The notes beneath the pieces are model-generated. The model saw only the letters and a list, made by a program, of their open reading frames with translations. It did not search any database and had not been told where the DNA came from. Shown one piece after another: positions 35,481 to 51,974 of a stretch of DNA of 64,000 nucleotides. The stretch spans positions 62,001 to 126,000 of the forward strand of contig NZ_LGIU01000085.1 of assembly GCF_001187915.1 (NCBI RefSeq), given 5' to 3'. Origin of the DNA: Arthrobacter sp. RIT-PI-e (GTDB lineage Bacteria; Actinomycetota; Actinomycetes; Actinomycetales; Micrococcaceae). The translations under genes and the position numbers were made by a program. How positions within the stretch are numbered: the first letter of the stretch is position 1; the number at the start of each line of letters is the position of its first letter.

Positions 35481-35493
35481 GTTCTGCTCCTAC

Positions 35494-35535
35494 GGGCCGT
35501 CTTGTCGCTCACCGGGTACGGCACCCCTCGTCCGG
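35494..35535 (-). ncRNA. Guanidine-III riboswitch upstream of gdx
   Basis: On the minus strand this 42-base element contains, in order, CCGGACGAG, GTGCCGTACCCGGT and GACAAGACGGC, the conserved blocks of the guanidine-III (ykkC-III) pseudoknot as known from Thermobifida. CCGG pairs with CCGG of the second block, and GCCGT with ACGGC. The last block lies directly against the ribosome site TAGGAG of gdx, so guanidine binding probably controls translation initiation. Confidence 0.92.
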
Positions 35536-35549
35536 AAGGCGATGCACGC

Positions 35550-35597
35550 CTCTGCCCCCATGGTGTCACGGGACGGGGTGCAGCACCTCTCGTCCGG
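35550..35597 (-). ncRNA. Possible degenerate second guanidine-III aptamer
   Basis: Sixty-two bases upstream of the riboswitch is a second CCGGACGAG followed by GGTGC-TGCACCC, matching the first half of the aptamer. The second half (GTGACACCATGGGGGC) departs from the conserved GACAAGACGGC. It may be a decayed duplicate or chance. It could also form the hairpin GGTGC/GCACC. Confidence 0.4.
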
Positions 35598-49985: not shown

Positions 49986-50933
49986 GTGACCACGGTCTAC
50001 GCCCTACACGAGAACCCGGAGTGGTTCCCGCCCTTCGCCCGCGCCTTCGAGGCCGAGGGGGTCGAGGTGGTCGAATGGCTCCTCACCGACGGCGTGCTGG
50101 ATCTCGATTCCGTGCCTCCCGAGGGCATCTTCTGGTCGCGGATCAGCGCCTCGGCGCACACCCGGGACCACGGACTGTCCAAGGACTACGCACGCTCCGT
50201 GCTCTCCTGGCTGGAGGCGCACGGGCGCCGGACGGTCAACGGGCGCCGCGTCCTGGAGCTGGAGATGAGCAAGGTGGACCAGCTCACCGCGTTGAAGGCG
50301 GCCGGCATCGACATCCCGCGCACGGTGGCCGCGGTGGGACGTGAGCGGATCGTCGAGGCCGCTTCCGGTTTCGCGACGCCGTTCATCGTGAAGCACAACC
50401 AGGGCGGCAAGGGTCTCGGGGTCAGGAAGTTCGAGTCCCACGAGGAGCTCGCCGCCTACGTGGCCTCGTCCGAGTTCGAGGAGCCCGCGGACGGCATCAC
50501 CCTGGTGCAGGAGTTCATCCAGGCCGCCGAACCGTTCATCACCCGCGCGGAGATCGTGGGCGGGAGGTTCGTCTACGCCATCACGGCCGACACCGCGCGC
50601 GGCGGGTTCCAGCTGTGCCCGGCGGACGCGTGCGCGATCGACCCGGAGACCGGCAAGCCGATCATGCCTCCCGGGGCCACGATCGCCCCCGAACCCGATC
50701 AGCAGCTGTTCGCCCTGCGGGAGGGCTTCGACTCGCCCGTCATCGCCCGCTTCGAGGAGTTCGCCCGGCGCAACGACCTGGAGGTGTGCGGGATCGAGTT
50801 CATCGAGACCGCCGACGGCCGTGTGTTGACCTACGACGTCAACACGAACACCAACTACAACGCCGCCGTCGAGGCGGTGGCGCCGAAATCCGCGCCCCGC
50901 GAGCTGGTCCGGTACCTGGCAACCCTCGGGTGA
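49986..50933 (+). CDS. ATP-grasp enzyme (RimK/GshB-like ligase)
   Basis: A 315-residue cytoplasmic ligase. ATP-grasp features: PFIVKHNQGGKGLGVRKFES (the lysine and Gly-rich loop), ITLVQEFIQAAEPFITRAEIVGGRFVYAI, and the metal-binding end GIEFIETADGRVLTYDVNTNTNYN. Such enzymes join a carboxylate to an amine or thiol using ATP, as in RimK, glutathione synthetase or peptide ligases. GTG 49986 follows AAGGATCCACC. It stands alone, divergent from the GNAT gene, and is followed by the three-copy repeat. Confidence 0.85.
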   Translation: MTTVYALHENPEWFPPFARAFEAEGVEVVEWLLTDGVLDLDSVPPEGIFWSRISASAHTRDHGLSKDYARSVLSWLEAHGRRTVNGRRVLELEMSKVDQLTALKAAGIDIPRTVAAVGRERIVEAASGFATPFIVKHNQGGKGLGVRKFESHEELAAYVASSEFEEPADGITLVQEFIQAAEPFITRAEIVGGRFVYAITADTARGGFQLCPADACAIDPETGKPIMPPGATIAPEPDQQLFALREGFDSPVIARFEEFARRNDLEVCGIEFIETADGRVLTYDVNTNTNYNAAVEAVAPKSAPRELVRYLATLG

Positions 50934-50943
50934 GACGGCGACG

Positions 50944-51480
50944 TCGCCCGCCCGGTCCGGTGTCGTTCGGCGTCGCCCGCCGGGTGTACCGAGGGGACAG
51001 TAATGACCGCGGATCGCCCTCACGAGTGGTGATGTGTGCCCTTTCGGCGTGGGGGTGGTGCGGGACGGGACGAGGACGACGACGTCGTCGCCTGCTCGCT
51101 CGCCCGACTACCCGGTCCCGTTCGTCCGATCGCCTACTCGCCCGTCCGGTCCGGCACCGTTCGCCGTCGCGCAGTGCCCGCCGGGAGCGCCAAGGGGACA
51201 GTAATGACGGCGGATCGCCCTCGCGAGTGGTGATGTGTGCCCTCTCGTCGTGTAGGTGGAGCGGGACGGGATGACAGGGACGACGTCGTCGTCTGCCTGC
51301 CTATTCGGTCCCGCTCGCCTACTCGCCCGCCTAGTTTGGTCCCGTTCGCTGTCGCGCAGTGTCGCTGCGTGCGCCGAGGGGACAGTAATAACGGCGGATC
51401 GACCTCACGAGTGGTGATGTGTGCCCTCTCGGCGCGGGAGAGGGGCGCGGGACGACGAGGAACCACCGCCGACGTCGCCT
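50944..51480. repeat. Three tandem copies of a roughly 190-bp unit
   Basis: Each unit has an exactly 59-bp core at 50991-51049, 51192-51250 and 51376-51434. Cores differ from each other at only four or five positions and never in length. The core contains GGGGACAGTAAT, GCGGATCG and GAGTGGTGATGTGTGCCC. Start-to-start distances are 201 and 184. Sequence before each core (GTTCG...GTCGCGCAGTG in copies 2 and 3) is also conserved, and copies 1 and 2 carry GACGACGTCGTC further on. Copy 3 breaks off near 51480. No coding frame is preserved well. Confidence 0.85.
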
Positions 51481-51551
51481 GCCTGCGGTAGCGTGCTGCT
51501 ACCGCGCCGGGACGGACGGCCGGACGCATCGGAACGAGGAGGACGGACGCG

Positions 51552-51974
51552 ATGTCGCGCTTCACGAAGGACGGCAAGGTCAAGCAGGACATCATCCCGA
51601 GTACGCTCCAGCGCTCGGAGGAGAAGGCGCAGGACACGTTCGCGGCCACCCTGGACGCCGCGGAGGAGCAGTACGGCGACGGCGAGCGGGCGCACCGTAC
51701 GGCCTTCGCCTCGCTCAAGCACGGGTTCGAGAAGGTGGGGGACCACTGGGAGGCCAAGGAGGAGAGGGGGCCGTCCGACGACCAGGCGGCACGGAGCGGC
51801 AAGAACACCGGGCCGACGGCGGGCGGTGTGGACGCGAGGGCCTCGAAGCGGCATCTCTACGACCTGGCGAAGAAGCTCGACGTGCCGGGACGTTCGTCCA
51901 TGACGAAGGACGAACTCGTCGACGCACTGCAGAAGGCGAACGACCGGGAGACCCGGAAGGCGCGAGAGGGATGA
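51552..51974 (+). CDS. ChaB-like protein with Rho-N/SAP-type C-terminus
   Basis: A 140-residue hydrophilic protein. The N-terminal 60 residues (IPSTLQRSEEKAQDTFAATLDAAEEQYGDGERAHRTAF, in parts) match the ChaB family, small regulators first linked to calcium/proton antiport. The C-terminal segment RHLYDLAKKLDVPGRSSMTKDELVDALQKAN is a short helical motif typical of Rho N-terminal or SAP nucleic-acid binding domains. ATG 51552 follows GAGGAGGACGGACGCG. It begins about 70 bases after the repeat region, an unusual neighbourhood. Confidence 0.8.
   Translation: MSRFTKDGKVKQDIIPSTLQRSEEKAQDTFAATLDAAEEQYGDGERAHRTAFASLKHGFEKVGDHWEAKEERGPSDDQAARSGKNTGPTAGGVDARASKRHLYDLAKKLDVPGRSSMTKDELVDALQKANDRETRKAREG

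Follow-up and report, generated by a model that had tools for sequence, protein, structure and literature searches.

We consider it reasonably probable that the three tandem cores found downstream of an ATP-grasp gene in Arthrobacter sp. RIT-PI-e are degenerate members of a dispersed family of 62-63 bp palindromic intergenic elements, that one copy was tripled at this place, and that the hairpin formed by such elements ends or protects the 3′ ends of transcripts. The window referred to throughout is the whole stretch of DNA analyzed, 64,000 nucleotides of contig NZ_LGIU01000085.1 (positions 62,001 to 126,000, forward strand), and the repeat lies at 50.9-51.5 kb within it.

Anatomy of the tandem repeat

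The repeat consists of three units, each comprising a palindromic element and its flanks, set between a RimK-like ATP-grasp gene and a ChaB-domain gene. The features are given below with the evidence for each; R2 is a covariance model of the family, described in the next section, and copy 3 is one of its rows.

49986..50933, + strand: RimK-like ATP-grasp gene, 315 aa (PF08443, E 1.5e-6; start from codon-usage gene calling)
50934..51126, + strand: tandem unit 1, element and flanks (unit alignment, repeat families D1 and D2; ends set by hand)
50987..51049, + strand: palindromic element copy 1 (R2 53.9 bits on +, 24.7 on −; E 5.2e-11 with the profile that excludes window and seed copies; Watson-Crick pairing at 14 of 24 mirror positions)
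51075..51089, no strand: GACGACGACGTCGTC dyad, end of unit 1 (inverted-repeat listing)
51127..51310, + strand: tandem unit 2 (unit alignment, repeat families)
51188..51250, + strand: palindromic element copy 2 (R2 45.2 bits on +, 15.9 on −; profile without window and seed copies, E 7.2e-9; 14 of 24 paired)
51279..51293, no strand: GACGACGTCGTCGTC dyad, end of unit 2 (inverted-repeat listing)
51311..51485, + strand: tandem unit 3, reaching the promoter-like box ahead of ChaB (unit alignment, repeat families)
51372..51434, + strand: palindromic element copy 3 (R2 61.4 bits on +, 29.5 on −; profile without copy 3, E 8.5e-11; 16 of 24 paired)
51484..51497, + strand: TGCGGTAGCGTGCT box ahead of ChaB, putative promoter (by-eye comparison)
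51552..51974, + strand: ChaB-domain gene with Rho_N domain, 140 aa (PF06150, E 6.7e-16; PF07498, E 3.5e-6)

The 63-bp cores are identical in pairs at 56, 57 and 58 of 63 positions and align without gaps. Their last 59 positions give 54, 55 and 54 identities, reproducing the indel-free 59-bp cores with 54-55 identities described in the first-pass annotation, and the GACGACGTCGTC dyads that it placed in copies 1 and 2 are present at 51075-51089 and 51279-51293. Within the 64-kb window, GAGTGGTGATGTGTGCCC occurs exactly at 51024, 51225 and 51409, and a fourth place, 2941, matches with three mismatches; shuffled sequences average 0.06 matches at three mismatches or fewer. The linkers share the looser similarity first attributed to them, and they are more precisely part of the same tandem unit, whose spacing is 201 and 184 bp. 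Between unit pairs, mismatches number 7, 6 and 5 in the element, which has no gaps, and 24, 33 and 34 outside it, where gap columns number 7, 9 and 4 (Fisher p = 0.065, 0.001 and 0.0003 for core versus flank mismatches). The indel-free core is real, and it is conserved significantly above its flanks in two of the three pairs. Selection had been proposed from the strict core length; the length constancy matches that of the family (64 listed copies measure 61-65 bp, found with a model of 63 positions).

A dispersed palindrome family and its hairpin

Searched with its own sequence, the core is confined to its own genome: the 18-mer, with one mismatch allowed, occurred in 1 of 97 genomes, and blastn with the 65-bp core matched 1 of 197 genomes of the bacterial family, in both cases the genome of origin. 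An exact search of the GTDB collection, which may leave out this genome, matched the 18-mer in one unrelated record, from Flagellimonas, and this match was taken as chance. The core had no match in viral contigs (exact 18-mer), plasmids or phages, and a plasmid, phage or viral origin was rejected on these grounds. An intact family member gave only short partial matches to plasmids (E ≥ 0.4) and to phages (E ≥ 6); a 16-base arm matched 11 viral contigs as a raw match count, and the exact consensus palindrome matched 0 viral contigs. Rfam returned nothing above the gathering score in the region, only sub-threshold miRNA models, and a known structured RNA family was rejected for that reason. Elsewhere in the window, at 35491-35555 on the − strand, a Guanidine-III riboswitch scores 66.8 bits (gathering score 36).

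Matches obtained by blastn of the region in relatives were mostly low-complexity GACGAC sequence, and among them was the locus of congener G006 that later opened the family. There, a diverged tandem pair came to light when fetched loci were scanned with a profile of the three window copies; the two copies of this pair fold with z-scores of −2.6 to −3.8. The five seeds (three from the window, two from G006) align gap-free over 63 columns and share a common hairpin. Of the 38 genus genomes, covariance model R1, built from these five seeds and so including the window copies, matched 25 at E ≤ 1 and 18 at E ≤ 0.01, own genome included. The 43 printed copies, seeds among them, are near-palindromes in which CGYCGAGAGGACAGAAATGACC is followed by a variable middle and then by its own mirror image. 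In the 29 copies of model R2, 79.0% of pair cells pair, compared with 34-48% when the pairing is slid. At E ≤ 0.1, R2 located distinct places numbering at least 14 in the own genome, at least 13 in G006, at least 5 in G020, at least 7 in G003, at least 6 in G022 and at least 1 in G024; these counts are lower bounds, part of the first-look candidates having been scored, and the weakest matches may be chance. At E ≤ 0.01, R2 matched 39 of 245 genomes across the bacterial family, spread over 8 of 32 genera. Both covariance models describe a palindrome, which biases their matches toward that structure. A 26-row profile without the window and G006 seed copies, some of whose rows are other copies of the own genome, recovered only the three window places at E ≤ 1 (5.2e-11, 8.5e-11 and 7.2e-9 on the + strand, weaker on the − strand), and the reversed window gave zero matches.

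A strict pattern for the element ends, which leaves 31-34 inner bases free, matched 10 of 396 genomes across the order, and the reversed-pattern control gave 0 among the matches listed. Two genomes of the related genus g61, G131 and G106, hold 48 or 50 strict-pattern places each; they are far richer hosts than the own genus. Outside these two, 11 strict places were found, and of 10 checked, seven have at least 12 of 14-15 inner pairs and three have 5, 8 and 9. Places outside the bacterial family are in G080 (one), G391 (one) and G471 (two): the G080 and G391 sites are good palindromes between convergent genes, and the two in G471 are poor palindromes (8/15 and 9/14 inner pairs) in a tandem setting, at least 79 bp from a gene end. 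Copy tips are mostly CGYC, GGCC or CATC, and many copies start with CGTC or CGCC. The genes that flank family members are many and unrelated and, judged by eye, have no common theme.

The structure is clearest in the g61 copies, 31 of which (29 distinct) align gap-free at 62 bp. In them, 90.8% of pair cells are standard pairs, versus 32-43% when slid, and 14 of 28 pairs have changed on both sides; 0 of 500 shuffles came up to these values. The outer arms are nearly invariant, and changes in the inner stem are compensated. Positions within the element mostly carry 0.8-2.0 bits of information; this falls to 0.4-0.5 over the ten bases next to it and to 0.1-0.2 farther out. Intact members form a hairpin stem of 24-28 bp, with the tip paired in most copies; read in either direction, the GC-rich inner stem is enclosed by an A-rich 5′ arm and a U/C-rich 3′ arm. 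For five members selected as intact, the folding z-scores are −9 to −13.5, compared with −1.5, +0.7 and −2.1 for the window copies, which keep 14, 14 and 16 of 24 mirror pairs, and −2.1 for a copy in congener G003. The window copies are degraded hairpins. An earlier fold test of these copies alone gave z-scores near 0 on both strands against shuffles, on which a structured RNA judged from them alone was rejected; the hairpin is visible only through the family. A scan for a hairpin followed by T's found none at the window copies and none at two intact members.

These results bear on several suggestions of the first-pass annotation. It had offered a structured RNA, a protein-binding site or a mobile repeat; a dispersed repeat with a hairpin has emerged through the family, although the window copies by themselves fold little better than shuffles. 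It had held that a core occurring only here would be better explained by recent neutral duplication, and the exact and near-exact searches do confine the core sequence to this genome; the palindrome family is not so confined. The homology and covariation searches that it proposed returned the core by blastn in its own genome alone, family copies by covariance model, and compensatory changes in g61, and its expectation for a mobile or regulatory repeat, many copies beside diverse genes, is what the family presents.

The same covariation bears on a coding reading, in which each core would encode MTADRPxEW, a leader peptide of nine codons that overlaps a second start codon (TGATG). In copies 1 and 2 an ATG does stand behind a run of AGGGG (51003 and 51204), but copy 3 has ATA in its place, the other members, judged by eye, do not seem to preserve the frame, and the arms of g61 members covary as hairpins, leaving this reading very improbable.

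Host locus, genomic placement and copying

The ATP-grasp gene, which 33 of the 38 genus genomes carry at E ≤ 1e-20 (own included), ends with a stop codon 53 bp ahead of element 1, and the 618 bp between this stop (50933) and the ChaB start (51552) are mostly filled by the tandem units. Ahead of ChaB, the TGCGGTAGCGTGCT box is the same or similar in G035, G024, G030, G006, G028, G021 and G003 and absent from G026 (by eye); it may have a promoter role. Congener G003 carries a single element in the orthologous gap (E 4.8e-6), 13 bp past the ATP-grasp stop. No element is present in the gap of seven congeners with the two genes adjacent (G035, G024, G026, G030, G006, G028 and G021), where it measures 71-220 bp. 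A local system tied to ATP-grasp and ChaB, as had been suggested for a single conserved locus, was rejected because these seven congeners lack the element; family members, moreover, adjoin many unrelated genes. In further congeners (L100-L108) ATP-grasp and ChaB lie 0.8-4.4 kb apart, making the gap a variable spot; the sequence after ATP-grasp in some of them is presumably AbgT-type transporter-like, as judged by eye.

Since G003 has one copy in the orthologous gap, the three copies here probably arose from one by tandem expansion within this lineage; the single orthologous copy is observed, and the direction of change, from one to three, is our interpretation. Tandem duplication is also found at five other fetched loci (L005, L149, L150, L152 and L157), and at L216 one copy in G028 and two in G006 stand beside the same genes. 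The triplet could instead be a neutral tandem duplication of unimportant intergenic DNA, at a locus where likeness to the family no longer matters. The restriction of the core sequence to this locus, the worn hairpins and the empty gap of the seven congeners would all suit such an origin, but the element is conserved above its flanks among the copies (significantly in two of three pairs), and we regard it as unlikely.

Placement was analyzed for 31 g61 sites, those listed of the 98 strict-pattern places in the two genomes, with one locus (L276) dropped for a gene call missing at the edge. Sixteen sites are convergent, 12 tandem and 3 divergent; the 96 background junctions divide in the same order into 12, 71 and 13, a convergent enrichment (16/31 vs 12/96) with p 2e-5. 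Together with the G080 and G391 sites, 48 distances to a 3′ end were obtained, of which 39 fall at 4-36 bp and 44 at 70 bp or less. In the own genus, 53 sites comprise 25 tandem, 15 convergent, 12 divergent and 1 unassigned; convergent placement, 15/53 against 11/59 window junctions, is not clearly enriched, 31 of 52 sites lie within 60 bp of a 3′ end, and 0 of 53 were counted inside a called gene. In this set, one weak site each was omitted for G003 (7 to 6) and G022 (6 to 5), and the G028 and G033 sets are partial; gene calls came from a home-made codon-usage script, which missed the DUF559-type gene of L154, so that one "divergent" site is really tandem. The elements have in this respect the extragenic position downstream of genes that is typical of REPs.

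This distribution also weighs on the reading of the palindrome as the DNA-binding site of a putative regulator or nucleoid protein. Conserved bases in both outer arms, a near-constant length and the location of some sites in divergent promoter regions would fit it; most sites, however, follow stop codons, the flanking genes share no theme by eye, and the covarying pairs of the inner stem are better suited to a hairpin, and we consider a binding site improbable.

Copies at the same locus in different species of the own genus are up to 97% identical (lowest listed 65%), and copies at different loci within one genome are at most 81% identical. Since same-locus identity reaches this level and different-locus identity does not, the own-genus elements seem to be largely inherited in place; mean identities differ modestly (0.758 vs 0.728, p 0.027), with same-locus groups set by hand. 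In the g61 genome G131, the elements of L266 and L267, which occupy different loci, agree at 62 of 62 positions, and their flanks are unrelated (13 and 16 of 40); such identical copies speak for recent copying or gene conversion.

The family might accordingly consist of small mobile repeats of the MITE or REP kind, non-autonomous, dispersed by some enzyme and with no host function of their own, the triplet being a tandem duplication at the hairpin. The identical G131 pair would be explained in this way, as would the fall in information content at the 62-bp boundary and the tandem duplicates at five other loci. Placement past stop codons is not expected of random insertion, a PF01797 protein is absent from all 38 genus genomes, and the same-locus identity of up to 97% against 81% or less between loci points to inheritance in place, although the means are close and some same-locus pairs stand at 65%. 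We judge a purely mobile repeat a possible but less than likely explanation.

Three specific candidates were rejected. A RAYT-type REP was set aside for the genus upon the search for the Y1/RAYT transposase family PF01797, which was found in 0 of 38 genus genomes and in 5 of 14 control genomes. Pairs of palindromes spaced 1-1.2 kb had the look of transposon (IS) ends, but they bracket ordinary genes. A DNA uptake sequence was rejected on 52 arm matches in seven genomes, 51 of which fall within palindrome places by our reading, with one (G028:C22:381229) unplaced and a control of 0.

Some of the bracketed genes recur. A DUF559-type nuclease-like gene lies between palindromes in seven genus genomes, own included (L150, L152, L153, L154, L157, L158 and L159); it was assigned by PF04480 on the L154 copy and by eye on the others, and in several it stands beside an MFS-like gene. 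An AHSA1/SRPBCC gene (Pfam on the L151 copy) and a small upstream gene lie between two palindromes in several genus genomes (L149, L151, L155 and L156); the small gene is ArsR-like by eye, the L149 copy being without a Pfam match. In G033 (L166), two palindromes 43 bp apart lack this gene pair between them.

Relation to known elements and proposed role

Bidirectional intrinsic terminators are hairpins between convergent genes, with an A-rich 5′ arm, a U/C-rich 3′ arm and a GC-rich inner stem, and the present family shares the hairpin and this composition of arms and stem; its sites are enriched between convergent genes in g61 and not clearly so in the own genus. It differs in the absence of a plain T-run after the stem and, in the manner of a repeat family, in keeping its sequence and length from locus to locus.

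REPs are described as 20-40 bp elements with GTAG or CGTC tags, the GTAG class tied to RAYTs and the CGTC class without a dedicated transposase, both near the 3′ ends of convergent and unidirectional genes (sections consulted of PMC3733652). With REPs and REPINs of the GTAG superfamily associated with RAYTs, the present family has in common dispersed extragenic palindromes and placement near the 3′ ends of convergent and unidirectional genes (PMC3733652, same sections); it differs in its 61-65 bp length, in that GTAG is not among the listed tips, and in that a Y1 transposase was not found in the 38 genus genomes. CGTC REPs, as far as the consulted sections of Di Nocera et al. (2013) describe them, resemble it in having no dedicated transposase known and in convergent and unidirectional placement, and many of the present elements start with CGTC or CGCC; theirs have 8-9 bp stems, 4-5 bp loops and an unpaired CGTC tag, in contrast to stems of 24-28 bp with a tip paired in most copies here. 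That source names five phyla, and its available text does not contain the word Actinobacteria (PMC3733652). Overall, judged from sequence comparison, the family shares placement, dispersal and palindromy with REPs and differs from them in size, tag and RAYT association.

SLS families, the repeated stem-loop sequences of bacterial genomes, are a further parallel, and a terminator role has been suggested for some of them; the survey covers Mycobacterium and Corynebacterium, and nothing of the present family appears in its consulted part (PMC2267715). REP counts are given for an Arthrobacter in an excerpt of PMC12306157, and the present family is not seen in the portion consulted of PMC4681348. 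In the literature searched, nothing was recognized as a description of this palindrome family, from which its absence does not follow.

The family most likely represents a REP-like 3′-end hairpin or a bidirectional terminator, and we infer termination itself from sequence features: the composition of the arms in both directions, together with the position past stop codons, suits a bidirectional terminator or a hairpin that stabilizes 3′ ends. The conserved outer arms exceed the needs of a generic terminator and count against the terminator reading. In the proposed course of events, a single copy past the ATP-grasp stop codon would have become three by tandem duplication in the own lineage; the hairpin, transcribed from either side, would end or protect the 3′ ends of neighboring transcripts, and at the window locus it would separate the ATP-grasp transcript from ChaB. 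Because the window copies are worn, their activity may be weak, partial or lost. A more ambitious and rather doubtful extension would make this a hairpin repeat family of near-constant length with tips CGAGA..RCAGA, serving as a standard bidirectional transcript-end module with a dedicated factor and copied by a non-RAYT enzyme; its reach would be the own bacterial family and perhaps others of the order.

An unexplained local repeat has in this way become a member of a family with a defined anatomy, a distribution and testable predictions. If the proposed role holds, these genomes would contain conserved hairpins at transcript ends that escape a simple T-run scan. The family also raises the question of how palindromes are copied in a host genus in which RAYTs are not detectable.
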